From IMG/VR virus record IMGVR_UViG_3300004369_000573, positions 1 to 24,898 of that record: a stretch of DNA of 24,898 nucleotides, one strand, 5' to 3'. This DNA comes from a virus. The notes below the pieces were generated by a model. It was not told the origin of the DNA and did no database searches. It worked only from the letters and a program-made list of their open reading frames with translations. Every line of letters begins with the position of its first letter. The first letter of the stretch is position 1. Shown here in pieces: positions 1,636 through 20,761 of the stretch. The position numbers were made by a program, and so were the translations under genes.

Positions 1636-2662
1636 ACGATTCATTATTACAACGTCCACAAAATTCGTCGCAAACAAACATTCTACCGTCTTTATATGAG
1701 CGTTTATCCCATGATTTATTAATAGGCTGGAACCATTCGATGGCTTTCTTAATTCCGTGTTGCATTGCATTATGGTCTTGCATCATTGGGCCGAGCTGAC
1801 TATTAACAACTTCCATGTACTGATTTTTACCAAACGTTTTAGGATAAAATCCAGTAAAACAACAAGGGGCTACATCGCCATTGGCGGCAATATAAATTCT
1901 GCTATTATCTAACGTATCACAACTAATCTCAATATTATCAGACTCTGGATTGAAGCGACTGGCTGTATTGTCTAGTGTACGCTGTTCTGAACGCATTTCA
2001 ACAAACACTGTTTGCCAATCTGTGGGTCCATTATAATCACCCAATACATGTGTCAGTTCTTGTTGTTCGTTGTAAACTGGGCCAATGTCTCTGCCGTGGT
2101 CGATTAGCTCAAAGCCTGAAAAGCCAAAGTCTTTGGCTAACTGGCGCATTTCTTCAATTTGATGTTCATTATGCTTAAACTTAATGCACTTCCAAGTGGC
2201 ATTGCCGCCGGCACCAATAAATGTCATTGCATTTTTAATTACTGTATTATAACGAGTGTTTTGTCTGTATAAATGGTGCGTGTCTTCGAGACCGTCAAGA
2301 CAAAATAACACCTTTGTGTTTGCTTTTGCCAATCGTTCCCAAAATTCTTTATCTCTTGCTCCGCCATTGGTGCTGATAATAATATGCATACCTCGATTTA
2401 CTGAACGAAAGTATTCAACAATATCTGCCGATTCGGGGTTCATAACAATATCGCCAAAGTTGCCATTAATTAAAACTTTACGCAACTGCCTTAAAAATGA
2501 AGAATCAAATATTTCTTTAGCCTGACTTAATGTCATGTATGTTTCTGGGTATCCATCATTGAATGTATATCCATTAAAATTACGCGGACACTGAGGACAC
2601 TTTGCATTACATAATGAACTAATTTCTAAATGTACTTCCTTAATATCTTCATATGCTATCAT
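1634..2662 (-). CDS. Radical SAM protein with SPASM-like C-terminus
   Basis: A 342-aa protein. C18-x3-C22-x2-C25 is the radical SAM 4Fe-4S motif, followed by PRNF. The usual glycine-rich GGEP motif appears as the variant NGNFGD near residue 67. The C-terminal third carries extra cysteines: one in SCDTL, a CC pair in VAPCCF near 268, and C331-x3-C335-x2-C338. These resemble a SPASM/twitch domain that binds auxiliary clusters. SPASM enzymes usually modify peptides, sugars or small molecules. No precursor peptide is obvious beside it. The start ATG overlaps the gp41 helicase stop as ATGA, so the two are translationally coupled. The substrate is unknown. Family assignment is firm; the RiPP-like role is only one possibility. 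Confidence 0.88.
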   Translation of the reverse strand: MIAYEDIKEVHLEISSLCNAKCPQCPRNFNGYTFNDGYPETYMTLSQAKEIFDSSFLRQLRKVLINGNFGDIVMNPESADIVEYFRSVNRGMHIIISTNGGARDKEFWERLAKANTKVLFCLDGLEDTHHLYRQNTRYNTVIKNAMTFIGAGGNATWKCIKFKHNEHQIEEMRQLAKDFGFSGFELIDHGRDIGPVYNEQQELTHVLGDYNGPTDWQTVFVEMRSEQRTLDNTASRFNPESDNIEISCDTLDNSRIYIAANGDVAPCCFTGFYPKTFGKNQYMEVVNSQLGPMMQDHNAMQHGIKKAIEWFQPINKSWDKRSYKDGRMFVCDEFCGRCNNES

Positions 2663-4044
2663 GATTTTAATCCAGCTAGCATGTTTTTTAGTTTACTACT
2701 ATCAACCTGCCCGCCTACCTTAGGAGTGTCGTCTACTTTTGTAACCGACGAAGTTGTTTTAATTTTATCCAATAATCCACTACTGACGCCTTCTGCTGGT
2801 CCTCGATCTTGTCCTTCTTCGCCAGGATCAGTAATACGCAAACTTTCTAAGTTAAACTCCAAGTCTACCTTTTGTCCAACACCACTTGAACTACGTGTTT
2901 TCATTAGCTGTATCTGATAACGTCCACGCTCACGCATTGCACGACTTGTAAAGATACCAAACACGTTGTCAGCAGTATTAATCTTACTGATACCACCCGA
3001 AATATGACTGTGGTCAAATTCAATTTCTTCTACTGCGCTACGATTTAACTGCGATGCTGTAATCATTAACACGTTAAATTCTTTTGCTAGGTTGCGTAAT
3101 TCTTCTGACACATACTTGTCTTTAACAAACAAATCATTAGGCGATACTTTAGCACTTACTGGCATAACCAAGTCCAAATAGTCAACCATAACAAAGTCAA
3201 CCTTCATACCTGTCTGTACTTGTAGCTCTTTTAAATAACTGCGAAGTTGATTGACATTGCTTTGTGCTGGCATATATTTGATTCTAAACTTGCCACTTTT
3301 CTTGCCTGCAAGTTTGATCTTCATTTCCAGTGTGTCCATGTCTTTGAAGATTTCTTTAGTGCTAGTATTTGCTACCATTGCATCCATACGCATTGCACAG
3401 AGTCCTTCACTGAGTTCTAGTGTAATAAACACACCATTCAATCCTTGTTGTACCCAGTTAATGCTGATGTTCTGCATAAACAAACTCTTACCACTACCAG
3501 AACCACCTGCAAAGATGTTGAGCTCGCCTCTGTTCATGCCACCGAACAAACGCTTGTCTAGTGTGGGCCACCCTGTGCTTACTTGTCCGTTGTTTGACCT
3601 AATTGCTTCCAATCTTGCACGAGGATCTTCAAAATAGTCTGTGCCCATGTCTTTGGTTAAACTGATCTGTACTGCATCTTTGATTAGTTTTTCTACAGGA
3701 TCATATTCACCTTTCTCGAGTAGGTCTGCACTTTTTAAAATCGCACGTTCTAGTTCCTGTCTGCGTGTAAAAAATTCAAACTCCTGCATAAACCAGTCAT
3801 AGTGTTCTTCGTGTAGGTCTGTGTGCGACTTTAGATCCACACCCGTTGTTGCACGGATCTGATCTGCGGTGGGCATTGCTTTGTGTTCGTCTGTGTGCTT
3901 TTGCATGAACTCTGCCGCTTCACGCAGACTACGATCAAAGTTTGCGGCATTGAAAATGTTCTGTATCCGTACAAATGTCTGAGCGTCACCCAACATCATT
4001 TCCAAAAATAACTTTTGCAGTTCTGGTGTGTATTCTTTATTCAT
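2659..4044 (-). CDS. 41: Replicative DNA helicase, T4 gp41-like (DnaB family)
   Basis: A 461-aa protein, close to T4 gp41 in length. An N-terminal helical domain (about 1-140) is followed by a RecA-like ATPase. Walker A is GGSGSGKS at 180-187, preceded by GELNIFAG. A Walker B-type DFVMVDYLDL lies near 285-295, then TASQLNRS (the DnaB-family Q/sensor element) and, further on, the arginine-rich LMKTRSS segment. It should form the hexameric 5'-3' helicase that works with the gp61 primase encoded about 1.5 kb upstream in the same operon. It overlaps both neighbours: 8 nt with the gene at 4037-4900, and ATGA with the radical SAM gene. The start ATG at 4042-4044 is clear. Confidence 0.93.
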   Translation of the reverse strand: MNKEYTPELQKLFLEMMLGDAQTFVRIQNIFNAANFDRSLREAAEFMQKHTDEHKAMPTADQIRATTGVDLKSHTDLHEEHYDWFMQEFEFFTRRQELERAILKSADLLEKGEYDPVEKLIKDAVQISLTKDMGTDYFEDPRARLEAIRSNNGQVSTGWPTLDKRLFGGMNRGELNIFAGGSGSGKSLFMQNISINWVQQGLNGVFITLELSEGLCAMRMDAMVANTSTKEIFKDMDTLEMKIKLAGKKSGKFRIKYMPAQSNVNQLRSYLKELQVQTGMKVDFVMVDYLDLVMPVSAKVSPNDLFVKDKYVSEELRNLAKEFNVLMITASQLNRSAVEEIEFDHSHISGGISKINTADNVFGIFTSRAMRERGRYQIQLMKTRSSSGVGQKVDLEFNLESLRITDPGEEGQDRGPAEGVSSGLLDKIKTTSSVTKVDDTPKVGGQVDSSKLKNMLAGLKS

Positions 4045-4900: not shown

Positions 4901-5565
4901 TTAGCAATTATTTCCTTAACCTTGTCTGCAACCCAACGGTGTGCTTCTTTTGACACCATATTGTCTCCAAACTGTTGTTTTAAGTTAGTGGTCAGATTTA
5001 GCCAATCGCTCTGGCGTATGGTCAACAATAGTGTGCGAATACTATTAAGACATGCACGAGCTTCGGTAAGTGTAGTTTCTTTAGTTGGCCAGATCACTGC
5101 TTTGGCGGCGGCACTGAGTCCTGAAATATCTTCTGCGTTGTTTGGTGGCAAAGGAATTTGTAAGAACGCAGGATCAATAAACAGATCGCTGGTCAAGTGA
5201 ATAACACGCTTACGCATATGAAATGCCATGCTGTCCAGCAAAGGCAAAAACTGACTTAGTTTGTAGTACTGATTAAACAGCGTGTCTTGAACGTTAGTCT
5301 CTGTTACAACTTTGGTGTGATCTGGATAGTAGCGTTGGTTACCTGCGCCACACCATTCAACAACAATTAAGTCTGCGTCTGCATCTAGTAGACTAACTGC
5401 CGCACGTAAAAATGTGTCTTCATTCGAGCTTCTATGAAAGCCTTGGTTAACTCCAGGAATGCCCAAGTCCAAATGCAATAGCCATCCGTAGTTGTCAACA
5501 TTCTGATCTGGTAGATAACGTCCACAGGTAAAGGTGCTGCCGTGAGCGTGAATCTTTTTATACAT
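4897..5565 (-). CDS. SGNH-like protein with altered catalytic block V
   Basis: A 222-aa protein. It begins with a short beta-strand and HGSTFTCG, with S10 at the nucleophile position of SGNH/GDSL hydrolases. It continues with SSN (N48) and VEWCGAGNQ (69-77) where blocks II/III are expected. At the C-terminus the expected D-x-x-H reads D201-N-M-V204, so the catalytic histidine seems replaced by valine. The following AHRWVADKV matches the family's final helix. It may therefore bind an acylated or sugar ligand without normal hydrolysis, or use another histidine. It is one of three SGNH-type genes in this window; the others are at 13261-14076 and 14976-15641. It overlaps gp61 by 8 nt and the next gene by ATGA. 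Confidence 0.65.
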   Translation of the reverse strand: MYKKIHAHGSTFTCGRYLPDQNVDNYGWLLHLDLGIPGVNQGFHRSSNEDTFLRAAVSLLDADADLIVVEWCGAGNQRYYPDHTKVVTETNVQDTLFNQYYKLSQFLPLLDSMAFHMRKRVIHLTSDLFIDPAFLQIPLPPNNAEDISGLSAAAKAVIWPTKETTLTEARACLNSIRTLLLTIRQSDWLNLTTNLKQQFGDNMVSKEAHRWVADKVKEIIAK

Positions 5566-6568
5566 TGATTTTTCTCCTCAGTTTTATCTTCAGTGGATTA
5601 GACTCTACGCCACTAATAATACTTCGTAGTACAAATAGTTTTCCTAGATTACAAACTGCATCGTTGATATCTTTATAGTCTTTTTGCCACACAGGAAAAC
5701 TAACATTCCAACCATAGTTGAGTGCGGCACGTACTAGCCCTTGTCCTGCATCGTCCTGATCAGGCACTACAATGACTTGCTTGTCTAAACTTTCTATTAG
5801 ATCTGCTTGTACGTCACTGACATTATTGCCTAGTGTAGCAACTCCGTCGATAGCAATAGCATCGAATGGTCCTTCACATACAATAACAATACGACTGGTT
5901 TGTAATTGTTTATCTAAGTTAAACACCAGCTTGTTTTCATAGTTGTTATGGTATCTGGGTTTGACCACAGGATCAAATGCACGAGCTGTATAGCCCATTG
6001 TGCGATTTTGCCATGTGATGGGAACTATAACACGACGATGTAGATTATATGCTTCATCTGGTGACCACAATATTTCATATGAATCCAGATCGACTCCTCG
6101 ATCTCGTACATAGTCTATTGCATGTTGCATTTCTTTAGGAAGCTCGTTATATAAACTCACAGCTTCATTCAAGCTAATTGTGTCCCTGGGAAGATCCCGT
6201 GCTTTAATAACAATTTCTTCTTTGGGCTCTTCTGCAATGTCTTCAGGTGCAATAAGATCCTTAATACGCATGGCTTCGATAACTAAACGTTTAACAGTGT
6301 TTTCATCTGCGCCCATCCAAGACAGTAACTTTTTAAATTTGTAGTTTAGATGCCGTCCTGGAGTGTAGTTTGATTTGAATGAACAGTTAAAACAGTGATA
6401 GTTTACTACGCCTTGCCCATTGAATATTAAGCCACCACGACCTCTAGTGTCGGGTGTTTCGCCGTTGTGTACACAACAGGGTGCGTTAAAACTGATCCAG
6501 CCAGTACCAGATGTTTTGCGTTTTGCAGGCAATAGGCTGGTTACTGCGTCTTGTACTTCTGTCCACAT
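5558..6568 (-). CDS. 61: DNA primase, T4 gp61-like
   Basis: A 336-aa protein, close to T4 gp61 in size. The N-terminal zinc-binding domain shows C31/C32, H34 and C59-x2-C62. A TOPRIM domain follows with VCEGPFDAIAI (E232) and VVPDQDDAG (acidic residues at 270-273). It should synthesise RNA primers for lagging-strand replication with the gp41 helicase encoded downstream. The ATG at 6566-6568 follows a 24-nt gap, the only break between this gene and the radical SAM gene upstream. That gap is AT-rich and contains TAGGT as a weak ribosome site. A sigma70-like TTGCTC-N16-TTATAT can be drawn there but is weak. The stop overlaps the SGNH-like gene. Confidence 0.92.
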   Translation of the reverse strand: MWTEVQDAVTSLLPAKRKTSGTGWISFNAPCCVHNGETPDTRGRGGLIFNGQGVVNYHCFNCSFKSNYTPGRHLNYKFKKLLSWMGADENTVKRLVIEAMRIKDLIAPEDIAEEPKEEIVIKARDLPRDTISLNEAVSLYNELPKEMQHAIDYVRDRGVDLDSYEILWSPDEAYNLHRRVIVPITWQNRTMGYTARAFDPVVKPRYHNNYENKLVFNLDKQLQTSRIVIVCEGPFDAIAIDGVATLGNNVSDVQADLIESLDKQVIVVPDQDDAGQGLVRAALNYGWNVSFPVWQKDYKDINDAVCNLGKLFVLRSIISGVESNPLKIKLRRKINV

Positions 6569-6592: not shown

Positions 6593-8053
6593 TCAAAGAG
6601 CAAGTAATTTTTTGAAATACTCGTCCAATCTTTGGCGACGTGCTTCTTGAATTCGAACTTGATCAGCATCAACATTGCGAGTAAAATTATGCTTTCTAGG
6701 GTCTAGGTTGCAGTAGTTTACTTCTTCAATTAAACTAAATGATGTTGGCACTTGGTATGGTGTTTTCAACGCTTCTAGCTCAGTGTAGTATTCTAGTGCG
6801 TCGCGCCAGGTCAGGCCCGATTCGGTATTTTTCCAAATTGGCATTCCATTTTCAGTGATCCATGTGTAGCCAAATTTTTCAGCATCTTGATCAATATCAC
6901 TGTTATAAGCCGCACGCCGATCTCTTTGTAACAGCAAAGGATGCCAACTCCAGTTTGGAATATTGTTATCCACGTACCACCTATGCCAGTTCAAATAGTC
7001 TTTTCTTGTGTCGCCGGGTAATCCACAAATCATACTGCATCTAAAACTAACACGATCTTTCCAAATATCATGCCTTAACTTTGCAAGATAGTTTTGTGCA
7101 TGTTTGAAACTCCAAGGCTTACCTACAAACATTGCCGCACGTTCATTGAATGATTCGATTCCAAAATAGGTAGCAACAAATCCTGATTCAGCCATTAGCT
7201 CTGGTGTTTCGGGATGGGCCCATAATAGATCTGCTCTTGCAAATGAAGTTACATTAACTTGAAAAGGTAAACGTTGCGTCATTTCATAAAAGGCACGTAC
7301 CTTGTCGGGATCATCATTGAATGTATCGTCTGTGAGATAGTAGTTGACTGTCTTGTAGTGCTCGTAGTTGTAGAGCATTTCTTCTTCTACTAATTCCATT
7401 CCACGAACATATTCATTTTTCTTTTTACCTACATTTGGAAATGCACAGAACTTGCATTTAAAAATACAACCTCTAGCAATCTCAATAGGTAAACTTTCGT
7501 GTGGTAATATACAATCGCGTTCGTGCCAACGATGATGATTCTTTTTAATGTCGTATTCTTGTTGTGTTTTTTCTCTAATTATTAGATTGCCATTCCGTTT
7601 TTCGATAACAGGAGGCGAACCTTTTCTAAAGATAAAGTTTACAAAGTTTGCAAACGTGTTCTCAGAATATCCGTAAAAGATATAGTCAAATGCAGTTTTA
7701 TTAGGATAGCGTTGTGTTACGTAACCACTGGCAGCACCGCCGCATACAACAAGTATATTAGGAGCCAGTTTGCGGATGTAGGGAAGTATAACTTCAACAA
7801 AACGTTTTGTTTCGCCAGCAGTAGGACCTTCCTTACCCATGGTAGAATAGCCAACTACTTTGGTAGACTTGGAAATAAACTTGTCTAGGAGTTGGAATAC
7901 CTGTTGGTCCGTCATCTGCGGAACAAAATCAACGACTTGTACCTGATAGTCTAGTGTTCTAATATGCCCCGCAAGTTGTCCTAGGCTCATTGACCTAAAC
8001 AAACGTTTGGTGCCAGACAAGCTACCTAAGAATAAGATTTCAGTTTCTATCAA
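6593..8053 (-). CDS. B12-binding-type radical SAM protein
   Basis: A 486-aa protein. Residues 1 to about 150 form a Rossmann-like domain of the cobalamin-binding type (VVGYSTMG near 66-73, VVCGGAASG near 102-110) but show no DxHxxG motif. Many relatives bind B12 without that histidine. The radical SAM motif is C196-x3-C200-x2-C203 in ARGCIFKCKFCAF. The barrel continues with YYLTDDTFN and CGLPGDTRKDY. Such enzymes often methylate or rearrange unreactive carbons. The likely start is TTG at 8051-8053, overlapping the DUF3050 stop as TTGA. The next in-frame ATG is at residue 22 and would cut the first strand. It is coupled to the DUF3050 gene and lies just before the primase. The substrate is unknown. 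Confidence 0.88.
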   Translation of the reverse strand: MIETEILFLGSLSGTKRLFRSMSLGQLAGHIRTLDYQVQVVDFVPQMTDQQVFQLLDKFISKSTKVVGYSTMGKEGPTAGETKRFVEVILPYIRKLAPNILVVCGGAASGYVTQRYPNKTAFDYIFYGYSENTFANFVNFIFRKGSPPVIEKRNGNLIIREKTQQEYDIKKNHHRWHERDCILPHESLPIEIARGCIFKCKFCAFPNVGKKKNEYVRGMELVEEEMLYNYEHYKTVNYYLTDDTFNDDPDKVRAFYEMTQRLPFQVNVTSFARADLLWAHPETPELMAESGFVATYFGIESFNERAAMFVGKPWSFKHAQNYLAKLRHDIWKDRVSFRCSMICGLPGDTRKDYLNWHRWYVDNNIPNWSWHPLLLQRDRRAAYNSDIDQDAEKFGYTWITENGMPIWKNTESGLTWRDALEYYTELEALKTPYQVPTSFSLIEEVNYCNLDPRKHNFTRNVDADQVRIQEARRQRLDEYFKKLLAL

Positions 8054-9409: not shown

Positions 9410-9790
9410 TTGTATACACAAGAAGACATAACCGCGCTCTTAGAGCAGTATCCATTCTTAACATACCTGGTCTACGGAGGGGTTGAGTATATCGGTGTGA
9501 TTCAAAACTCAGACGAACAAATTACTACCATGTATGACTATGGTAGACTGAGAACACGCGAAGATAAAATGAATTTCCTAGACCTAGCAGAAGTTTGGTG
9601 GTGGGAATCAAATCGTATGATTCCGATTAATATTTTTCTAAAGCAGGATTGGGAACAGTTTAAACCTGTTATTCAAACCATGAACAGCAAAGATGTAGAC
9701 ATACGCTTTGGTCCTGCAACTAACATGAAGTCTATGGGACAGAAACGTAGTAAACGTCGCAGTATTACGCTAGTTCGCAAGACTGATTAG
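9410..9790 (+). CDS. Conserved-looking hypothetical protein, only plus-strand gene
   Basis: A 126-aa protein. The frame opens at 9395 after a TAA and has no ATG before the core, so TTG at 9410 (TTG TAT ACA) is the likely start, with a weak TAAGAA upstream. It contains a small beta-rich part (YGGVEYIGVIQNSD, TTMYDYGRLR), then EVWWWESNRMIPINIFLK. The strongly basic tail GQKRSKRRS suggests nucleic-acid binding. I remember similar small proteins (WWWESNR.IPINIFL) from T4-like marine phages but cannot name a function. A late octamer lies 60 nt upstream. Its last 21 nt overlap the end of the convergent DnaE-like gene. Confidence 0.7.
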   Translation: MYTQEDITALLEQYPFLTYLVYGGVEYIGVIQNSDEQITTMYDYGRLRTREDKMNFLDLAEVWWWESNRMIPINIFLKQDWEQFKPVIQTMNSKDVDIRFGPATNMKSMGQKRSKRRSITLVRKTD

Positions 9791-10351
9791 ATTCATATTC
9801 ACCACAACCAGATTAGCATATGCTACACTGTGCGACTTTTTAAAATAATACCCATCATCTGTAGGCTTGTTCCAAACGGTTTCAGCAACTTCACACCAAC
9901 GTTTGCCTATTAAATGTCGTTTGCTTGGGCGTATCACTGCCAGCAACATTGCTAGACGTGGAACAGTATCTACCATCTCAGGCATACGTATCATTGTATC
10001 ATAATGATCCCCAATGTGAATTAACTGCTCACAGAATTCACGTTCGTAAAGGCGTTCCCAATTTGGGGGAGTGTTTAATAGTTCAGTTAAATGTGCTTCG
10101 CTTTTAACTTGGTTATAAATGTGAACATTAAGTAAGTCCAGTTTAATATAACCGCGGTCTTCGCTGGCTTTATGATCTATAGAGCAAAGTCCGTTAAACG
10201 GATCCACAGGAACGGTTTGAAAGTAAACACCGGTGTTATGTTTTACAACCTCACCGTTCCTGTGTATGCTGGCTGGTGTATGCTCAAATAGTTCTAGTAC
10301 TCGAGCACGATCACCAAAATCTATATCAATATCACTTTTAAACTTATTCAT
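9770..10351 (-). CDS. Miniature DnaE/PolC-like (C-family polymerase core) protein
   Basis: A 193-aa protein from the ATG at 10349-10351, which overlaps the stop of the upstream gene (ATGAATAA); a GTG seven codons earlier is also possible. Four segments follow the order seen in bacterial DNA polymerase III alpha. SDIDIDF (6-12) matches PDIDIDF, with D9 and D11 at the places of catalytic D401 and D403 of E. coli DnaE. KHNTGVYF resembles the HA.GVV element. YIKLDLLN (69-75) resembles KFDFLG, with D72 at the place of D555. LLAVIRPSK (137-144) resembles ALYRPGP. KKSHSVAYA (171-179) resembles the fingers motif NKSHS.AYA. DnaE has over 1100 residues, so PHP, beta-clamp and OB domains are missing. 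It may be a tiny polymerase, a nucleotidyltransferase or a regulator. Activity is unproven. Confidence 0.68.
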   Translation of the reverse strand: MNKFKSDIDIDFGDRARVLELFEHTPASIHRNGEVVKHNTGVYFQTVPVDPFNGLCSIDHKASEDRGYIKLDLLNVHIYNQVKSEAHLTELLNTPPNWERLYEREFCEQLIHIGDHYDTMIRMPEMVDTVPRLAMLLAVIRPSKRHLIGKRWCEVAETVWNKPTDDGYYFKKSHSVAYANLVVVNMNLISLAN

Positions 10352-10535
10352 TCGTATATAACGTTTCGTCACCGGTTGCTGTAATTGGTTTGCCTTCTTT
10401 TACAGTTTCAACATATTCTTGCATCCACGTCAATGCAATTTTTGTATTATCAGTCTGAGGGAATACCCAATTTTTTATTATATTTTCTAGTACTGCAATA
10501 GTTATCAGTTCGGCACTGTTTAATTGATGAGACAT
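10344..10535 (-). CDS. Small hypothetical protein, 63 aa
   Basis: The ATG at 10533-10535 has AGGTGGA about 10 nt upstream, and the longer frame upstream offers no better start. The peptide is helical (SAELITIAVLENIIKNWV, then IALTWMQEYVETVKEG) and ends in an acidic ETLYTNE. It lies 2 nt after the zinc-finger gene, and its stop overlaps the ATG of the DnaE-like gene. It is probably a coupled partner or accessory of one of them. No family is recognised. Confidence 0.65.
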   Translation of the reverse strand: MSHQLNSAELITIAVLENIIKNWVFPQTDNTKIALTWMQEYVETVKEGKPITATGDETLYTNE

Positions 10536-10537
10536 TT

Positions 10538-11233
10538 TTAAAATCCACCTTGCTTTAGAATCTCTCTGACCCACTCTCGGTCAGCGAGATAGTCTTGAAA
10601 TTTGCGTTGCCAAAACTCGGGATCAATCCAAGGAAGTACAACGTTGAGTTGGTCTTCATTGAGCCGTTCTAAAAACTCAATGCCTGAGTCACAATTGAAT
10701 ACTACCCATGCACTGACTCTACCATTACTTATATGATAACATATTTTATTAGCGTTGCCATATCTAAAATAGTCTACATCTTGGAGACTATCAGTTTCAT
10801 CTGCATAACGCTGTATTTCCCGGATGCTACGTTCTAGCGCATCCTGGACACTTTCATTATGCAAGTACTGGCTTAACCATTCTACATAATGATCCTCCTT
10901 GCACCAATGATCCAACTTTTTGTTGTTTTTGAGAAGCCAATCGGTATAACTCTTAAAGTTAACACACCGGATAGCTTGGCAGTGTCTACCATACTTGACG
11001 AATGCATTATAGTATGGACTTTCTACTAAGTTTGTATACGTCTTGAGGCTTGCGCTGCCTTGTGTAAGTTCAAAGAACCTGAGATATGCTTGGAAACCCA
11101 TTTGCACACCCTGTTCTTTTTCCTGCTGATACCTACGTTTTAGCTCGCAGAGATGTGCCGCAAGAGTACTTTCCTTGCGAAATGCTTTCTCACAGTACTT
11201 GCACTTAAAACGCGGACTTGATTCGCTTGTCAT
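10538..11233 (-). CDS. Zinc-finger protein of unknown function
   Basis: A 231-aa protein from the ATG at 11231-11233. An ATG at 11278 would add 15 residues but would lie 74 nt inside the clamp-loader gene. The N-terminus holds FKCKYCEKAFRKESTLAAHLC, a single C2H2-type finger with C11-x2-C14-x12-H27 and C29 as the probable fourth ligand. The remaining part is helical, with many aromatic residues, and ends in WREILKQGGF-like basic sequence. In T4-like phages single-finger proteins often act on DNA ends or on host complexes, but no homologue is recognised. The position between the gp62-like gene and the DnaE-like gene suggests a role in replication or recombination, which is inference. Confidence 0.75.
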   Translation of the reverse strand: MTSESSPRFKCKYCEKAFRKESTLAAHLCELKRRYQQEKEQGVQMGFQAYLRFFELTQGSASLKTYTNLVESPYYNAFVKYGRHCQAIRCVNFKSYTDWLLKNNKKLDHWCKEDHYVEWLSQYLHNESVQDALERSIREIQRYADETDSLQDVDYFRYGNANKICYHISNGRVSAWVVFNCDSGIEFLERLNEDQLNVVLPWIDPEFWQRKFQDYLADREWVREILKQGGF

Positions 11234-11675
11234 CCCATCCGTGTTCTCTTGCCAAGTCTTTAAGATCTCTTGTATCATTTACTTTCGCCAATAGTTCTAG
11301 GTCTTCGTCTGTGCGCTCTGGAAAGATTTCACGTAAAAATTTAACTGCTTTATTGTTGTTGACTTTCTTTTTAGGACTAATCCATTTATGATAACAGTTA
11401 CCCATTCCTGGACTTACTGTTGTACTCAGCAACCATAAAAACTTTTTGTGCTTACTAGAACTGATGTCAAAGAAGTTCTTATTCAGACGTTCATTACAAC
11501 TCGCCAAATAATACTGTTGCAATACAGTATCGCCGGTAACTGCACTACCCCAACGAATCATAAGAAACGGAGCAAACTTTTTCTTCTCCTCATCAGTCAT
11601 TTCATCAAAGTACTCACGCCGCTTTGAATCAAATGCACTCATTTCATTTCGTATGTTTAATCGATCCATGGTCAT
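11205..11675 (-). CDS. 62: Clamp-loader small subunit, T4 gp62-like
   Basis: A 156-aa protein, slightly shorter than T4 gp62 (187 aa). The middle reads KFAPFLMIRWGS, then YYLASCNERLNKNFFDI, HKKFLWLL and SPGMGNCYHKWISPKKK. Order and spacing follow T4 gp62 (F-M-x-x-x-x-S, then a MN-containing helix, a Y-L segment, PRGKRYGKW and a K-rich turn). The C-terminus (LREIFPERTDEDLELLAKV) resembles the same region. It would join gp44 (not in this window) to load the gp45 clamp. The ATG at 11673-11675 is poor in ribosome site. It is preceded by an extended -10 promoter at 11696. Overlaps with both neighbours are 29-32 nt. The family call is by memory of motifs. Confidence 0.6.
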   Translation of the reverse strand: MTMDRLNIRNEMSAFDSKRREYFDEMTDEEKKKFAPFLMIRWGSAVTGDTVLQQYYLASCNERLNKNFFDISSSKHKKFLWLLSTTVSPGMGNCYHKWISPKKKVNNNKAVKFLREIFPERTDEDLELLAKVNDTRDLKDLAREHGWDDKRIKSAF

Positions 11676-11943
11676 TCTTTATCAAGTTATAAATCATTAT
11701 AGCATGATCCAATGCTTCACGCAAGCTCTCATTTGAGCGAGCTAACTCAAACATACCACGTGCTAGTTTTTGTTCATTTCGCAATCTGATCATCTCTCTT
11801 TGGTACGGAGTGTTAGGCAGTGTCCGGCCATCTCCGTTAGGTACAACAAAACGATCTGCTGGATCTGCTCCAATGGGTCTTGCATACACAGTTGTGCCGC
11901 CGTCGGGTGATTCATAGATATACGTGGGCTTGTTCTGAGACAT
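11644..11943 (-). CDS. Hypothetical protein (YESPDGG family-like)
   Basis: A 99-aa protein from the ATG at 11941-11943, with GGAAG about 8 nt upstream; the TTG four codons earlier is less likely. It begins YIYESPDGGTTVYARP, a beta-hairpin. An RFVVPNGDGRTL turn follows, then a long charged helix (about 50-85). I have an impression of similar short proteins in T4-like phages of aquatic bacteria but no function. Its 3' part carries the -10/-35 elements of a promoter that would serve the clamp-loader gene. The overlaps (32 nt each side) mark it as part of the same operon. Confidence 0.7.
   Translation of the reverse strand: MSQNKPTYIYESPDGGTTVYARPIGADPADRFVVPNGDGRTLPNTPYQREMIRLRNEQKLARGMFELARSNESLREALDHAIMIYNLIKNDHGSIKHTK
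11696..11724 (-). promoter_or_regulatory. Extended -10 sigma70-like promoter inside a gene
   Basis: The minus strand reads TTGCGT (11719-11724), 17 nt spacer, TATAAT (11696-11701), with TGC directly before the -10. Start would be near 11689, leaving about 14 nt before the gp62-like ATG. A perfect extended -10 makes up for a 3/6 match at -35. It would let clamp-loader expression rise independently of the accessory operon upstream. Confidence 0.4.
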
Positions 11944-12439
11944 AATATCTTCCAATGTTGCAATTTTGAAAGCCTTCGATTACTTCTCTGTGTATGGGCC
12001 AGTGTGCTAGGTCTACAGGTTCTGCAACCAACTCATAGTTGTTGTTAAATGTACTAGCAAAATATACTTTAGGCACTTTGGTTTTGTTAGCACACTCATT
12101 AACAAACTTGTGGTGTATGTGTCCGTAATCTCCGTCTTCGTTGTGTGTTAATATGAGATCCGCTGAACGTAGGTTGCGTATTAACGTTTCTCCAGCTAGA
12201 CCTGCGTCAAATGTGATCAACTCATTTGCTTCTAAATCTTGATAGTGATCCGTGAATCCTAAAAACTTGGTTTTAATATTGTAGAGATTCCAAAATTTGG
12301 CGGCTTCTTGTGCTCGGTCGTCTTTAAGGTCATAGGTCAAATAAACAATAGACCAATCCCAATCTTTAAACTTTTGTATAAAGGGCCATGCGAATATCAC
12401 ACAGTCATCTGGATGCGCTACTGCCGCTATTGCCTTCAA
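11912..12439 (-). CDS. PIG-L/LmbE-type deacetylase
   Basis: A 175-aa protein. AHPDD (8-12) is the metal and catalytic motif of the GlcNAc-PI de-N-acetylase (PIG-L/LmbE) fold, with H9 and D12 as zinc ligands and D11 as the general base. H107-x-x-H110 in YGHIHH supplies the third ligand. The residue after the DD pair is C, where E is usual. Members remove acetyl groups from GlcNAc-type sugars or related compounds. The start is TTG at 12437-12439 with GGAG 7-8 nt upstream, overlapping the cupin stop as TTGA. There is no ATG near the conserved N-terminus. With the sugar dehydratase, glycosyltransferase-like and SGNH genes upstream, it most likely trims a glycan or nucleotide sugar. Confidence 0.83.
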   Translation of the reverse strand: MKAIAAVAHPDDCVIFAWPFIQKFKDWDWSIVYLTYDLKDDRAQEAAKFWNLYNIKTKFLGFTDHYQDLEANELITFDAGLAGETLIRNLRSADLILTHNEDGDYGHIHHKFVNECANKTKVPKVYFASTFNNNYELVAEPVDLAHWPIHREVIEGFQNCNIGRYYVSEQAHVYL

Positions 12440-12780
12440 TGGTTTCTCCTACCATCAAACACACAAATAAACTCTAACCAAAAATCGCCCGTATTGTGTA
12501 CTTTATGAAATACGTTGTCCTCTACTAGAACAACATCTCCCGCTTTTACATCAAACATACGATAGTCTAGTTCCATTTTACCTTTGCCGCTAATAAAATA
12601 ATAAACCCCTTCCTGCCCAGCATGTCGATGTCCGTTAGTGCTTTTATTTGCTCTCAATTTTGTTTTACTGAGAACTAAGTTTTTTAAAAGTTTATTATCG
12701 TATAGCTCATACTTGTCATCAGACTTGATAAGATCGCCACCGATGTCCTCGATGTTTACTAAATTACCAAATTTTTCCAT
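12436..12780 (-). CDS. Single-domain cupin
   Basis: A 114-aa protein from the ATG at 12778-12780. Cupin motif 1 is H51-R-H53 followed by E57 and FISGKG. Motif 2 is GDVVLVEDNVFHKVHN, with H92 as the last metal ligand and the H-x3-N pattern. All four ligands are present, so it should bind Fe, Mn or Zn. Single-domain cupins act as sugar isomerases/epimerases, dioxygenases or lyases, or as small-molecule sensors. It overlaps the upstream gene by 17 nt and is coupled as TTGA to the PIG-L gene. A role in the sugar pathway of this operon is likely but unproven. Confidence 0.88.
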   Translation of the reverse strand: MEKFGNLVNIEDIGGDLIKSDDKYELYDNKLLKNLVLSKTKLRANKSTNGHRHAGQEGVYYFISGKGKMELDYRMFDVKAGDVVLVEDNVFHKVHNTGDFWLEFICVFDGRRNH

Positions 12781-13264
12781 AGTCAACTACCTCACTTTGT
12801 CTGCTGATTTCACTGACAAAATATATGCAACGCGGTTTGTTGCCCTCATCAATTGGCACTGCTAAAAGTTGTCCGGGTCTCAGTTTAGGAAAATACCATT
12901 TTACGTCCTGAAAAATATCCTCAATCTCGATATCGAAAAACTCTGTTCTAAAGCTAGACAATGGATTAAAAGTAAATGCTTTAAATCCTCGGTCATTAAT
13001 ACTAGTCAAAGGAATAACTTCAAGGTCACCCATCTCAGGCTCACCAATCAGTATGTGCCAATCTAACGGCATACGAATCTGTTTACCATCAATACGTAGA
13101 ACCAATGCACTGCTATTAAAACTTTCTAAAAAGATTAAAGGTATAAAAAAGAAGTCAGGGTTTTTAGGGTCGCCGTTGTCTAGTACTGCAAACCGAAGAT
13201 CTTCAATTTCTTCGGGTAATTCAGTCATGTCAAATGACTGATTTTCTAATGTTAATATTCTCAT
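12764..13264 (-). CDS. Hypothetical protein, 166 aa
   Basis: The ATG at 13262-13264 overlaps the upstream stop as ATGA and is chosen over the TTG at 13273. The protein is beta-rich and acidic: DLRFAVLDNG, FFFIPLIFLES, MPLDWHILIG, then EVIPLTSIND and PKLRPGQLLAVPI near the end. The alternation of hydrophobic strands and the DVKWYFP turn suggest a compact small barrel. No signal peptide or membrane segment was seen. I do not recognise the family. Its place between the second SGNH gene and the cupin makes it part of the accessory operon, but it may equally be a core phage gene of unknown role. Confidence 0.75.
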   Translation of the reverse strand: MRILTLENQSFDMTELPEEIEDLRFAVLDNGDPKNPDFFFIPLIFLESFNSSALVLRIDGKQIRMPLDWHILIGEPEMGDLEVIPLTSINDRGFKAFTFNPLSSFRTEFFDIEIEDIFQDVKWYFPKLRPGQLLAVPIDEGNKPRCIYFVSEISRQSEVVDYGKIW

Positions 13265-14076
13265 AGTTTCCAATGCTCCCTGATTATGTTATAATATACG
13301 TCTGCAACATACTCCTGACTTTTTGGGTCTCCGTGATACCCAGGATCGAATCCTAGGGTATTTTCAAAACCCCATTCATTAGTAGCATATGCAGGTGTTT
13401 CTTTATAGTCAAGTGTAAAACAACGATCAGGCACAACGTCAGGAAAATAACTTCTAACATCTTCACTGGTCCATATATTACAAGCAACAACAAGAAAAGG
13501 AATTTTAGCATAGTGCAGTTGCATAATGCCGTCGCGAATAATCCAACGGTCCATTTGCAGTTTCCATTCACTGTCATATATGTGATTTACATACTGCTTT
13601 ACTGCTTGCTGAGTGTATTTGTCTATCTTACTAGCACGATAAGGATGGTCATAGTTTTCTGCAAGACTAAAAATAGTTTCACAGATCATTGTGTAGGGAT
13701 TATTGCCGTAGTTGACATTGTTGATCCCTGCTTCAATGTTATAACCATTAAGGTGCGCTTTTTGTAGGTGTTGTTGTAGATCGCTGTTCCAACCTTTGTT
13801 TTCATTCTTAGGCGGAACATAAGGGGCCGCACTAGCTGGAATTTCCATGCGATCATGAAACGTGGGCGCAATAATAGCAAATGTTGGACGCTGACGAAGC
13901 ACTTCATCAATTTGAATTCTAATGCCCCCGTTGGAACATCCTTGCCTTGCTAGAATTTCTACATCCCATCCTAGTTTCTTAGCCAGCACTTCACCATATG
14001 CAGTGCCTGCTAGCTCTGTGTATTCTGCGTTAGCTGGAGCACTAAAACTGCATCCACATACTATTAGTTTACTCAT
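13261..14076 (-). CDS. SGNH-like hydrolase
   Basis: A 271-aa protein. Block I is VCGCSFSAP with S10 as nucleophile. ARQGCSNGG carries the block II/III glycine and N49. IAPTFHDRME follows. Block V is D-P-G-Y-H248, followed by G-D250-x-x-S-Q-x-x-V-A. The same H-x-D-x-x-[ST]-Q-x-x-V-A spacing occurs in the sister protein at 14976-15641, showing the two are related. SGNH proteins remove or transfer acetyl and other acyl groups on glycans and lipids. There is no signal peptide, so it acts in the cytoplasm or on the virion. It overlaps the PRMT-like gene by 8 nt. Confidence 0.78.
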   Translation of the reverse strand: MSKLIVCGCSFSAPANAEYTELAGTAYGEVLAKKLGWDVEILARQGCSNGGIRIQIDEVLRQRPTFAIIAPTFHDRMEIPASAAPYVPPKNENKGWNSDLQQHLQKAHLNGYNIEAGINNVNYGNNPYTMICETIFSLAENYDHPYRASKIDKYTQQAVKQYVNHIYDSEWKLQMDRWIIRDGIMQLHYAKIPFLVVACNIWTSEDVRSYFPDVVPDRCFTLDYKETPAYATNEWGFENTLGFDPGYHGDPKSQEYVADVYYNIIREHWKL

Positions 14077-14986
14077 AGGCGAAATACCAATTCCTGTTTG
14101 CTGTATTATACGATGTTGTCACTTTTGTTGTGCCTTCTGGCATTATTTTACACATTGTTCCAAAGATCGTATCATGTACGTGCAGTTGTATATTGTCTGT
14201 AACTGCTCGCCATATTAGTACTATACAATAACCATGCGTTTTTTGCAAGTCTTTTAGGTTAAATTGATGATTAAATTGTTTATAATTTATATGCTGAGGT
14301 TTATTGAGATCTACAGTATACCAATCGCTTTCGTATAATGTTTTAAAGTGTTCAGCAATAAGTTTCATTTCAGGAAGTTGATGACATCCTTGAAACAAAT
14401 TAAAAATTGTATTCTGCTTAAATTGTTCCCTATCTTCTCGTTGACCAACAACAGCATCATTTACTGCACTAAAAAATCTTGGATCAATATCTATCTCAGG
14501 TTCGAAGCCATGTGCTTCGCTGGCACTTTGACAAATAGCAAATAACGGATGGTTTTCGTATATCCTAAACTGATATTCGATGCGCCCAGGGATATATTCC
14601 CCACCGTTGCGTATAGCATGCTCACTAAGTTCTAGTATATTTTCATTCCATATGTTTGTACACAATGTTTCACTGACATAGACATCACCTGTAATGTCTA
14701 TGTCTAGCCAGTTTGCATTTAGCACTGTAGCACGATCACTGAGCTCGCATAGTTCTAGATTCTTGCGTGTTAGTTCAGCACGGTCCGGATCCATTTCAAC
14801 TGCGGTAACATGTGATGCACCTGCCTGCAATGCCAGTATACTGAGAATGCCAGTACCCGAGCCAATGTCTACCACATGCTTGCCGGGTGCTTTTAGTTCT
14901 AGTACATTTTTGTAGAACCTATTACGCCCGCCGTCGTTGATCATTGGCAAGAATACGCCATTATCACTTCGCCATTCAATTGACAT
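14069..14986 (-). CDS. PRMT-like class I methyltransferase
   Basis: A 305-aa protein. Motif I is VVDIGSGTGILS (38-49), with acidic post-I E64 in AVEMDP. The loop VYVSETLCTNIWNEN (102-116) has the S-E start and a second E at 115. It resembles the double-E loop that holds the guanidine group in protein arginine methyltransferases, closest in feel to the PRMT7 'SE...T.L..E' form. A beta-rich C-terminal half follows, as in PRMTs. The start ATG has GGGAG at good spacing. It lies between two SGNH genes with 8-11 nt overlaps. Target candidates are host proteins, or an amino or hydroxyl group of the operon's product. Arginine methylation is inference. Confidence 0.78.
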   Translation of the reverse strand: MSIEWRSDNGVFLPMINDGGRNRFYKNVLELKAPGKHVVDIGSGTGILSILALQAGASHVTAVEMDPDRAELTRKNLELCELSDRATVLNANWLDIDITGDVYVSETLCTNIWNENILELSEHAIRNGGEYIPGRIEYQFRIYENHPLFAICQSASEAHGFEPEIDIDPRFFSAVNDAVVGQREDREQFKQNTIFNLFQGCHQLPEMKLIAEHFKTLYESDWYTVDLNKPQHINYKQFNHQFNLKDLQKTHGYCIVLIWRAVTDNIQLHVHDTIFGTMCKIMPEGTTKVTTSYNTANRNWYFAYE

Positions 14987-15641
14987 TGATTACTCCCTGT
15001 AAGACTTGTGCTACCCGTTGTTGTGTTTCAGCATCGGTATGAAAGCTACCGGAAAATTCCCCTTGATAGGTTAATGATACTTCGTATACAAAAGGACATG
15101 CTTCTTGTAGAGATATTGTTTTTATGTTTTTTAGTTCTGCTCTGGCGCAATAGCCGTGATACATTTCTCTGTCGAACCAATCCTGCATGTTATGATCAAA
15201 CAAATAAGCATGATAATATTTTATTGCATCGATAACTTCACGTGGCCCTGCCAGGACCTGCTTGTTAGTTACCAGTGTATCTATAGTATGACTAATAAAC
15301 GGAGCACGTTCACCTCCTGCCATCAGCACCTGTTCGTGCGTTGGGTATCCATCATGATGTCCATAGCGTATATTTTTTAATACCGCCGGAGTTGACCAGC
15401 TAGGCTTATCGGGGTCTCTGGTAGGATTTGGTGCCAACATACGACTAGGGTCAGTCATACCATACACAATGACATCCGGTTGCATCTGTAATGCTTCGTT
15501 GAATTGGCAAAAAATTGCACTGTTGCTAGCACCTTGTCTAGCCAAATTTAACACACTACCGTTTAACAGTTCACTAAAATGTACCCCAGGATGGTCCATG
15601 TCGGAAGCGCAATAACTATCTCCACACACTACAATTTTCAT
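14976..15641 (-). CDS. SGNH-like hydrolase, second paralogue
   Basis: A 221-aa protein. It opens with MKIVVCGDSYCAS, a classical GDS block with S9. LARQGASNSA (N40) and VIVYGMTDPSRM follow. The C-terminal F-H201-T-D203-x-x-T-Q-x-x-V-A repeats the motif of the gene at 13261-14076. A likely catalytic histidine is therefore present. It starts at ATG 15639-15641, coupled as ATGA to the glycosyltransferase-like gene, and overlaps the PRMT-like gene at its end. It probably acts on acyl groups of a glycan or other small product. Cytoplasmic, without signal peptide. Confidence 0.78.
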   Translation of the reverse strand: MKIVVCGDSYCASDMDHPGVHFSELLNGSVLNLARQGASNSAIFCQFNEALQMQPDVIVYGMTDPSRMLAPNPTRDPDKPSWSTPAVLKNIRYGHHDGYPTHEQVLMAGGERAPFISHTIDTLVTNKQVLAGPREVIDAIKYYHAYLFDHNMQDWFDREMYHGYCARAELKNIKTISLQEACPFVYEVSLTYQGEFSGSFHTDAETQQRVAQVLQGVINVN

Positions 15642-18285: not shown

Positions 18286-19313
18286 CTTGAGTTCTTCAAT
18301 GTCCAGTTAACCATTTGTGTTAACCTTGTTTCAAAGTCTTGACTAGGAATCCATCCAAGACTTTTCATATAGGCTCCACTAAGTGCGTATCTAAAATCGT
18401 GACCAGGACGTTGTAGGTCATAGCTTACCATTTCAGTTTTGAGTTTGCGGCCCATGATCATGGCAACATGTTCTGCTACTTCTAGATTGCTGTATTCACG
18501 ATCACCAACAATATTAAACTTAGGACAAGTGCCACCACCTTCATCGGGTGCGATAGGAAACTCGCCGTGTGGCAAGTTGATAATAAACATGGTAGCGTCT
18601 GCTACGTCTGCCGCATGGATCCAATGACGCAAACCTGAACGTGTACCTGTTTCTGCATCGCAGTGTATTACCACAGGCTTATCATCTAATAGCTGGCGCA
18701 TAATAATGCCCAAGAACTTTTCTGGTAGTTGACGTTCACCAAACACGTTCATGGTATGCGTAACATAGATAGGCATCTTGTAGGTATTTTCATACGCAAT
18801 ACAGAGCTCTTCTGCTCCTGCTTTGGTAGCTGAATATGGACTACGACTATTGTAGCGTGACCATTCGTGATACTCTACATTGTCTGGAGCATCACCAAAG
18901 ACTTCATCGGTGCCAAAATTAATAAACTTCTTTAAGTTAGGTTGATGGTGTCGTGCAAACTCTAATAAGTGGGCTGTACCTACTACGTTGTCTTGTACAA
19001 ACTGTAGAGGGTTGGCAATGCTACGATTAACATGACTGCCTGCCGCCATGTGTACGATGTAGTCTAGGTCGCCAATCTGTTTGGCTATTTGACCATTAAT
19101 CTCTGCACGTAGGTCGTGGAATATAACACGTAGCCTACGCATTTCTTCTGGGCCAAACTCTTGTGCTAGTTCCGCAATGCGATTTAGGTTACCCGAAAAG
19201 TCTAGCCTATCTAGACTGATAATTTCATATTCAGGATGCTTAAGCAACCTTCGTAAAAAATGGTGACCAATAAACCCAGCACCTCCGGTTACTAGAATTC
19301 TTTTTACTTCCAT
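18270..19313 (-). CDS. dTDP-glucose 4,6-dehydratase-like SDR
   Basis: A 347-aa extended short-chain dehydrogenase, normal in length for RmlB/RfbB. GGAGFIG (10-16) binds NAD. T135-D136-E137 in FGTDEVFG gives the active-site threonine plus the acid pair typical of 4,6-dehydratases, where epimerases lack this pair. Y160-x3-K164 in YSATK is the catalytic pair. LRHWIHAADVADA corresponds to the substrate-binding RdW..v.D segment. The product would be a 4-keto-6-deoxy nucleotide sugar, the substrate class of the next gene's methyltransferase. It overlaps UvsW by 10 nt. No matching thymidylyltransferase, epimerase or reductase lies in the window, so the sugar nucleotide must come from host or elsewhere in the genome. 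Confidence 0.88.
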   Translation of the reverse strand: MEVKRILVTGGAGFIGHHFLRRLLKHPEYEIISLDRLDFSGNLNRIAELAQEFGPEEMRRLRVIFHDLRAEINGQIAKQIGDLDYIVHMAAGSHVNRSIANPLQFVQDNVVGTAHLLEFARHHQPNLKKFINFGTDEVFGDAPDNVEYHEWSRYNSRSPYSATKAGAEELCIAYENTYKMPIYVTHTMNVFGERQLPEKFLGIIMRQLLDDKPVVIHCDAETGTRSGLRHWIHAADVADATMFIINLPHGEFPIAPDEGGGTCPKFNIVGDREYSNLEVAEHVAMIMGRKLKTEMVSYDLQRPGHDFRYALSGAYMKSLGWIPSQDFETRLTQMVNWTLKNSRWLKL

Positions 19314-20761
19314 TCCACCTTTTCCAATTCAAACGGATAGTTTGCTTCTCGGTAAAACTGTTTCCTTTTTGTAAGGTGACGTTTTGCAAACTTGCATGTA
19401 GATGTAATATCCCATATCTCTACATGATCTTTATCTTCTGCTTTACGAATGCCTCGCCCTATAGATTGTATAACTCTAACGAAGCTCTTACCAGGCTCCA
19501 GAAGAACGAGATTGAAAATCCTAGGGATATTAATACCCACAGCGGCAACACCATAAGTGGCCACAATAACCTTATCGCTAGAATCTGCGACTTCGTCATA
19601 TTCTTGTTTACGAGCTTGTGCCTTCGTTCCGCCGCTAACAAAAACGGCGCCCTGAATCCTCTCTGTGAGTTTTGTTCCTGCATTTATCCTATCCACCAAT
19701 ATTAATGTATTCCCGCTAGTTCTAATCTGTTCAATCATGCTAGCGATGTAATCCAACCTATCAGGTTGCTCTAACAAGTATTTAAGCTCGCTTTGATAGT
19801 TGGCATATTCTGAATGATCGACGAGCTGTGCAATGTTCACTTTACACTGTGCAAGGTGTCCTGCTTCTTGCAGTTCACTGGCACTGAGTTTACCCATCAC
19901 GTTCCCAATACTACAATACAAACTTACTTGTTCGTATTCTTCTTTGGGAATGGTTCCAGTTAGTCCCCAACGGATAGGAACATGAGCGAACACTGTGGTC
20001 AGCAGAGTTTTTAATGCATCTGCTTTAGCCATGTGTACTTCGTCTACCATTATACACACAACGTCCTCAATAAACTCGCCAATGGAAATTTCAGCGACTT
20101 GATTGCGTGTGTTCTTTAGAAGTATATTCAAACTCTGCCATGTGCAGATGGTGTGCTGTCTGCCAAACTCTTTACGGTCACCAAAGAATACACCTACGTC
20201 TAACCCCATGTTAATGTAGTCCGCTTCTGTTTGTGTAACCAGACTCTTGTTAGGCACAATAACAATGCTACGTCCATAGGCTTCTACGCTTTTGCTCAGT
20301 GCCGCAGTCATAATAGTTTTGCCTGCGCCTGTTGCCACTTCTTGTATAGACTGTGGGTTGTCCAAGAAGTTGTTGATGATCTCAACTTGATAGTCACGTA
20401 GCTGTATGGGTTGCCCTGCGGCTGGATGACCTTTAGGCCAAGCAATGTTGCTGTATGAATCTTCTTCTACCTTTGTGAACTCAAACTTGGTAGAATATTC
20501 TCGAGTGTCATTAAGCTCAATTTTGTACCCTGCTTTTTCTATCTCAGGTAATATTTTAGGCAGTAGATTAATATATGTCGATCCGCCCATCTGGAAAAAG
20601 CTAACAGTACCATCCCAACGTCCTAGTCGTACCGCCGGCATGTACCGTGCGCCAGGTATCTCATACTTGAACAAGTTTGCAAGACGTCGACGCATGTTAA
20701 GGTCCAATCCTTCGACCTTAACATTTACTTCGTCCTTGATGTGTAACATACATGTACTCAT
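19304..20761 (-). CDS. uvsW: DNA/RNA helicase, T4 UvsW-like
   Basis: A 485-aa protein, near T4 UvsW (503 aa). The N-terminal region (about 1-110) is the small UvsW DNA-binding domain, with RLGRWDGT. Walker A ATGAGKT is at 143-149, DEVH at 240-243, GLTGT at 266-270 and QSIGRGIR at the end of the second RecA domain. UvsW unwinds branched recombination intermediates and R-loops and switches T4 replication from origin- to recombination-dependent mode. Its ATG overlaps the stop of the HARP-like gene (ATGA). It precedes the sugar operon with a 10-nt overlap to the dehydratase, so the accessory genes ride on its transcript unless an internal promoter exists. Confidence 0.93.
   Translation of the reverse strand: MSTCMLHIKDEVNVKVEGLDLNMRRRLANLFKYEIPGARYMPAVRLGRWDGTVSFFQMGGSTYINLLPKILPEIEKAGYKIELNDTREYSTKFEFTKVEEDSYSNIAWPKGHPAAGQPIQLRDYQVEIINNFLDNPQSIQEVATGAGKTIMTAALSKSVEAYGRSIVIVPNKSLVTQTEADYINMGLDVGVFFGDRKEFGRQHTICTWQSLNILLKNTRNQVAEISIGEFIEDVVCIMVDEVHMAKADALKTLLTTVFAHVPIRWGLTGTIPKEEYEQVSLYCSIGNVMGKLSASELQEAGHLAQCKVNIAQLVDHSEYANYQSELKYLLEQPDRLDYIASMIEQIRTSGNTLILVDRINAGTKLTERIQGAVFVSGGTKAQARKQEYDEVADSSDKVIVATYGVAAVGINIPRIFNLVLLEPGKSFVRVIQSIGRGIRKAEDKDHVEIWDITSTCKFAKRHLTKRKQFYREANYPFELEKVEWK

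Follow-up and report, generated by a model that had tools for sequence, protein, structure and literature searches.

The putative C-terminal half of a split DNA polymerase III alpha subunit in an environmental fragment of a T4-superfamily phage genome

What is a protein of 193 amino acids, bearing the motifs of bacterial DNA polymerase III (PolIII) alpha, doing in a phage replication gene cluster? The question is raised by an IMG/VR virus record (IMGVR_UViG_3300004369_000573), the 24,898 bases of which were analysed in full and are referred to below as the window. The open reading frame concerned, hereafter the C unit, lies on the minus strand, with its ATG at position 10351 and its stop codon at 9770-9772, and its product begins MNKFKSDIDIDF. 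An earlier note on this DNA had recognised five segments in the order found in DnaE (DIDIDF, residues 7-12; HNTGV, 38-42; KLDLLN, 70-75; LLAVIRPSK, 136-144; KKSHSVAYA, 171-179), and had proposed that the protein is a condensed DnaE/PolC core carried by a T4-like phage. All five segments are present, and the relationship is borne out by PHROG, profile-profile and fold matches beyond chance, while the proposal of a condensed core in a T4-like phage agrees with a predicted palm and fingers fold and with the genes found nearby. Indeed, helicases resembling gp41 and UvsW and a primase resembling gp61, all in the same run of replication and recombination genes, identify the window as part of the genome of a T4-superfamily phage (Table 1).

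The protein had been treated as new, yet its family has already been described. A split minimal PolIII alpha was reported computationally in group 2.2 jumbo phages that possess a family B polymerase, and the split form was proposed as a model of ancestral PolIII (Iyer et al. 2021, PMC7824862). To this family the window protein adds a new member, from the environment: the C unit and phage group are like those of Iyer et al., as are the N partner and family B polymerase of its relatives, whereas the window, a fragment of environmental DNA from IMG/VR, does not contain the partner gene. The subunit was also noted in the genome paper of Atu_ph07 and called 'truncated' in that of CBB (PMC5259590), and no experimental test or biochemistry of the split enzyme was found in the literature searched. 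Added here are a corrected metal triad, a steric-gate residue, the exact split point, a co-occurrence control and a list of conserved neighbours.

Table 1 Position, strand and assignment of the C unit, its motifs and the neighbouring genes in the window
Feature	Position	Strand	Remarks
UvsW-like helicase	19304..20761	-	PHROG 16, 1e-74; upstream of C unit
156-aa protein, called 'gp62-like' in the earlier note	11205..11675	-	PHROG 11758, without assigned function
C2H2-like zinc-finger protein, 246 aa	10538..11278	-	PHROG 11058; weak Pfam zf-C2H2 match, 4e-4, below cut-off
63-aa ORF	10344..10535	-	8-nt overlap with C-unit start
C unit, putative half of split minimal DNA polymerase III alpha	9770..10351	-	PHROG 11778, AlphaFold2 model, PDB alignments, hhalign
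DIDIDF, residues 7-12	10316..10333	-	D7, D9 align with catalytic E. coli D401, D403; D11 with D405
HNTGV, residues 38-42	10226..10240	-	aligns with DnaE HAAGV; H38, G41 invariant here and in DnaE
KLDLLN, residues 70-75	10127..10144	-	K70 aligns with E. coli K553, D72 with catalytic D555; both invariant
LAVIRPSK, residues 137-144	9920..9943	-	R141-P142 align with DnaE RP motif; K144 is an invariant phage residue
KSHSVAYA, residues 172-179, O-helix equivalent	9815..9838	-	H174 aligns with E. coli steric gate H760
Convergent gene, 126 aa	9410..9790	+	PHROG 11637, without assigned function; 21-nt overlap with C-unit 3' end
gp61-like DNA primase	5558..6568	-	PHROG 47, 7e-41; downstream of C unit
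gp41/DnaB-like replicative helicase	2659..4044	-	PHROG 19, 5e-71; downstream of C unit

Family membership and predicted fold

In a PHROG profile search, PHROG 11778 ('DNA polymerase') matches residues 3-190 of the 193 at 3e-59, and the KSH segment also matches three full-length DNA polymerase PHROGs (7e-5 to 3e-3). The Pfam model DNA_pol3_finger is matched by 7 of 12 diverged relatives of the C unit (best 3.3e-5) and not by the window protein itself, which neither Pfam nor NCBIfam names. Moreover, phmmer returned no match between the window protein and the PDB, and a profile of the diverged family reached an E-value of 0.3 at best, to E. coli alpha, so that structural and profile-profile comparisons were needed. 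Aligned by hhalign to eight DnaE proteins, the C-unit profile gives an E-value of 7e-10.

An AlphaFold2 model of the C unit, built from an alignment of 41 sequences, has a mean pLDDT of 92.6. PolIII alpha chains take ranks 1-12 when this model is compared to the PDB with Foldseek, at modest E-values (best 4e-3), and after realignment ranks 1-14 are all PolIII alpha (E. coli, Taq and Mycobacterium) or PolC, with Z-scores of 6.3-9.6 and 171-189 of the 193 residues aligned; the first unrelated fold follows at Z 3.9. The best structural match is 3e0d (Z 9.6, rmsd 3.8, 189 residues), and the core fold is likewise shared with PolC of Geobacillus kaustophilus (3f2b; Z 9.5, 188 residues). The C unit is predicted from this model to possess the DnaE palm and O-helix fold; structure prediction against DnaE/PolC, a check suggested in the earlier note, thus found a palm-like domain rather than none. 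It spans residues 396-779 of E. coli alpha, with the thumb and a large part of the fingers left out. Like DnaE of E. coli, Taq and M. tuberculosis, it has equivalents of the palm residues D401, D403, D405 and D555, the HxxG motif, K553, the RP motif and KSH with H760, but unlike DnaE it is without the PHP, thumb, HhH, OB and C-terminal domains, and most of the fingers are missing. The PHP, thumb, HhH/OB and C-terminal domains had no Pfam or PHROG match in the 193 residues and appear as gaps in the profile alignment.

The C unit is under purifying selection, with a dN/dS of approximately 0.07 against its two closest relatives. At least 596 related stretches occur in IMG/VR viral contigs, and 63 phage records carry a C unit, the listed ones all deriving from jumbo phages, either as jumbo-phage records proper or as shorter ones (RaK2, 121Q, GAP32, CBB, Munch, PA5oct/Paride, Atu_ph07, Phosso, XacN1, SCTP-2 and relatives); the nearest isolate relatives of the window protein, Atu_ph07 and Phosso, are approximately 50% identical to it. 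C units also occur on 11 contigs of bacterial or archaeal assemblies, two of them 283 and 335 kb long. All 11 matches derive from metagenome bins or uncultured assemblies and are most likely jumbo-phage contigs that have been wrongly binned, and an origin in cells was rejected for the split form. Membership of the C unit in the PolIII alpha family is near certain.

Active-site residues

The catalytic triad had previously been placed at D9, D11 and D72. These acidic residues are indeed invariant, D7, D9 and D11 being kept in 81 sequences of close relatives and 12 of highly diverged ones, but the placement was one step off and is rejected: SDIDIDF aligns with PDIDxDF, of which the first two aspartates are catalytic, so that by alignment the metal triad of the C unit is D7, D9 and D72, with D11 corresponding to D405. 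In E. coli the metal ligands are D401, D403 and D555, while D405 is kept in DnaE and replaced by Asn in PolC (Timinskas et al., PMC3919608). The aspartate that the C unit shares with DnaE at this position, unlike PolC, makes it DnaE-like at that site.

Across twelve sequences, down to 35% identity, D7, D9, D11, H38, G41, K70, D72, R141, P142, K144 and H174 are invariant; the acidic and KSH residues are kept in relatives, with none of the free variation that had been raised as a counter-indication. Furthermore, 10 of the 18 invariant C-unit columns are also invariant in DnaE, compared with 1.5 expected (hypergeometric p ~2e-8), where DnaE columns were mapped to those of the C unit by motif, by ourselves. 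The region of KLDLLN aligns by HMMER to residues 540-559 of 2hnh, and that of KSHSVAYA to residues 738-767 of E. coli alpha. H760 of E. coli has been proposed, from modelling, as a steric gate that excludes ribonucleotides (PMC8485763), and its equivalence to H174 would point to a DNA rather than an RNA polymerase. The GRGSAAGS motif, which DnaE requires, is absent from the C-unit chain, which begins just after the place that the motif would occupy.

A partner gene and the split point

In relatives, the GRGSS nucleotide-binding part missing from the C unit is encoded by a second gene of approximately 175 amino acids, the N unit. Pfam PF07733 detected it in longer relatives, with scores exceeding the curated cut-off for 4 of 6 records (Phosso, RaK2 and two records designated G001 and G004); the two records lacking a match are from IMG/VR and may be incomplete. 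All 16 of 16 N-unit genes match PHROG 11127 ('DNA polymerase'), an hhalign comparison of the N-unit profile with DnaE gives an E-value of 2e-8, and dN/dS is approximately 0.04. Neither half shows a difference of note from its PHROG (11778 for the C unit, 11127 for the N unit). The N unit closes with ..GVGRGSSVASF..DLDISEFLR, and this GRGSS..EFL(N/R/K) ending is conserved. It halts at the FERFLN of DnaE, right before the PDxDxDF with which the C unit starts, so that, unlike in DnaE, the chain is broken between these two motifs. Similarly, the N-unit model (pLDDT 70.8, with the GS loop below 50) aligns to residues 271-379 of E. coli alpha, a range complementary to the 396-779 of the C unit and without overlap. 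Read in this way from sequence, the C unit is half an enzyme, the C-terminal half of a split PolIII alpha, and the suggestion that it is a minimal C-family enzyme by itself falls away, given the GRGS segment in the second gene of its relatives.

The case for pairing of the N and C units is made by their complementary sequences, shared split point and complementary structural ranges. Among the listed phage records, 60 carry a C unit and 59 of these have the N unit as well, the sole listed exception being a record of 109 kb that is apparently a partial genome. However, phyletic co-occurrence was rejected as proof of pairing, because a control gene without known link to the polymerase (12764-13273) is distributed almost identically (61 records), and a shared distribution consequently marks the phage clade rather than a specific partnership. 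The N unit was not found within the 24.9-kb window, which is itself a genome fragment. In XacN1 and in Stenotrophomonas phage CM1 the N and C genes share a strand and are separated by approximately 15 kb, which indicates that they are not always far apart; in RaK2 the distance is 34 kb.

Gene neighbourhood and proposed function

The gene order of UvsW, small genes, C unit, convergent gene, primase and helicase is kept in RaK2, 121Q, Paride and Phosso. The convergent gene adjoins the C unit in 94 of 95 loci, the two being on opposite strands in 102 of 103, and it is represented in 58 isolate phage records, the listed ones of which carry a C unit; in relatives, the 126-aa gene often overlaps the 3' end of the polymerase gene by a few bases. 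On the upstream side, the C unit is flanked by the zinc-finger gene in 104 of 105 loci, and in relatives the two frequently abut; the zinc-finger gene occurs in 61 isolate phage records (40 listed, all of the same clade). The 63-aa ORF, to which the C unit was said to be coupled, does exist and does overlap its start, but a homologue is detectable in only 2 of 107 related loci. It was rejected as a partner of the C unit for this want of conservation, and is probably incidental. The 156-aa gene is kept in 94 of 103 loci, and no gp62 match was obtained for its product in a PDB profile search or in Pfam, so that its identity as gp62 is not confirmed.

A family B polymerase was found in the relatives G001, Phosso and RaK2, and was not seen among the scanned genes of the window, which covers part of a genome; this T4 gp43 type is thus encoded in the same phage genomes as the split enzyme and belongs to an unrelated polymerase family. 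Just upstream of UvsW, within the same cluster, RaK2 possesses a gene annotated as a DNA polymerase exonuclease subunit (2736-3557 of the stretch compared) and 121Q one annotated as DNA polymerase III (2814-3632). It is possible that this gene encodes a proofreading partner of the split polymerase; no such gene was identified among the window genes scanned.

In jumbo phages related to RaK2, 121Q, PA5oct and Atu_ph07, the C unit is probably the C-terminal half, binding metal and template, of a minimal C-family polymerase that is split in two and acts as an accessory polymerase beside gp43. Under this hypothesis, the N and C chains would assemble via a completed palm sheet, giving a two-metal, dNTP-selecting polymerase of approximately 365 amino acids that would do without the PHP, thumb and clamp- and tau-binding domains and most of the fingers. 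Such an enzyme could serve in gap filling, in repair or on one strand, beside the family B polymerase of the phage, and its setting would be the replication cluster with UvsW, primase and helicase. That the two chains would form an active polymerase is likely, although activity is made uncertain by the loss of the thumb and most of the index and middle fingers, among them the finger region through which DnaE contacts the dNTP, and by the lack of the invariant DnaE arginine of the RRAxxKK region. A functional enzyme made of the two halves would rank as the smallest C-family DNA polymerase and would reveal the parts of the bacterial replicase that catalysis cannot do without; phages that possess a family B polymerase would then be seen to retain a second one of bacterial type. 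While the idea of a split polymerase is a prediction, it can be tested directly in laboratory phages of E. coli such as 121Q, thanks to the conserved residues and exact split point. A bolder version appears distinctly unlikely to us, namely that the active enzyme of approximately 365 amino acids, the smallest C-family polymerase known, takes the zinc-finger and 126-aa proteins as subunits that replace thumb and clamp contacts, in a hybrid B+C replisome.

Several alternative hypotheses may explain a protein of this kind. It is conceivable, if rather unlikely, that the C unit is half of a two-chain protein that is no longer a polymerase, and which serves as a binding or regulatory subunit holding DNA or dNTP in the gp43 replisome. 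Such a role would accord with the loss of the thumb and a large part of the fingers, as well as with the family B polymerase already present in these genomes. However, polymerase homologues that have become inactive usually lose their metal ligands, whereas the three metal aspartates, the lysine of KxD, the RP motif and the steric-gate histidine are here invariant down to 35% identity, and dN/dS is low. We consider it very unlikely that the C unit works without a partner as a single-chain, template-independent nucleotidyltransferase of the Pol beta superfamily: its acidic triad and the Pol beta-like nature of the C-family palm might suggest as much, but the glycine-serine nucleotide-binding segment of that superfamily sits in the separate N gene of the same genomes, and the O-helix equivalent of DNA polymerases is retained together with the steric-gate histidine.

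Phages are known to target host replication, and the resemblance of the C unit to host alpha raises the potential for a decoy, a mimic that titrates the clamp, clamp loader or exonuclease contacts of host PolIII. Yet the active site is retained while the domains that contact the clamp, tau and exonuclease are missing, and a decoy has no need for invariant metal ligands or for a GRGSS partner gene, which renders this explanation highly improbable. Both the decoy and the domesticated fragment envisaged in the earlier note fit poorly, as it is catalytic and not partner-binding residues that are conserved. A host dnaE fragment that is decaying or has been kept by accident deserves practically no credence: the C unit is far shorter than DnaE, and the label 'truncated' (PMC5259590) is in keeping with such an origin, but it is refuted by purifying selection and by conservation across at least 596 related IMG/VR stretches, along with a fixed gene position and a complete, confidently predicted fold.

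The control gene used for co-occurrence encodes a 169-aa protein (minus strand; PHROG 11279, without assigned function) and is a core gene of the split-polymerase clade. Between UvsW and the zinc-finger gene lies a sugar/metabolite island (11912-19313, minus strand), which comprises a PIG-L deacetylase, a cupin, a PrmA-like methyltransferase, a C-methyltransferase of Methyltransf_13/14 type and a GDP-mannose dehydratase/epimerase-like protein; in most relatives some of these genes, the cupin and PIG-L genes among them, do not occur near the C unit. Finally, two radical SAM proteins, one of them with a B12-binding domain, are encoded among the primase and helicase genes (1634-2662 and 6593-8053, minus strand).
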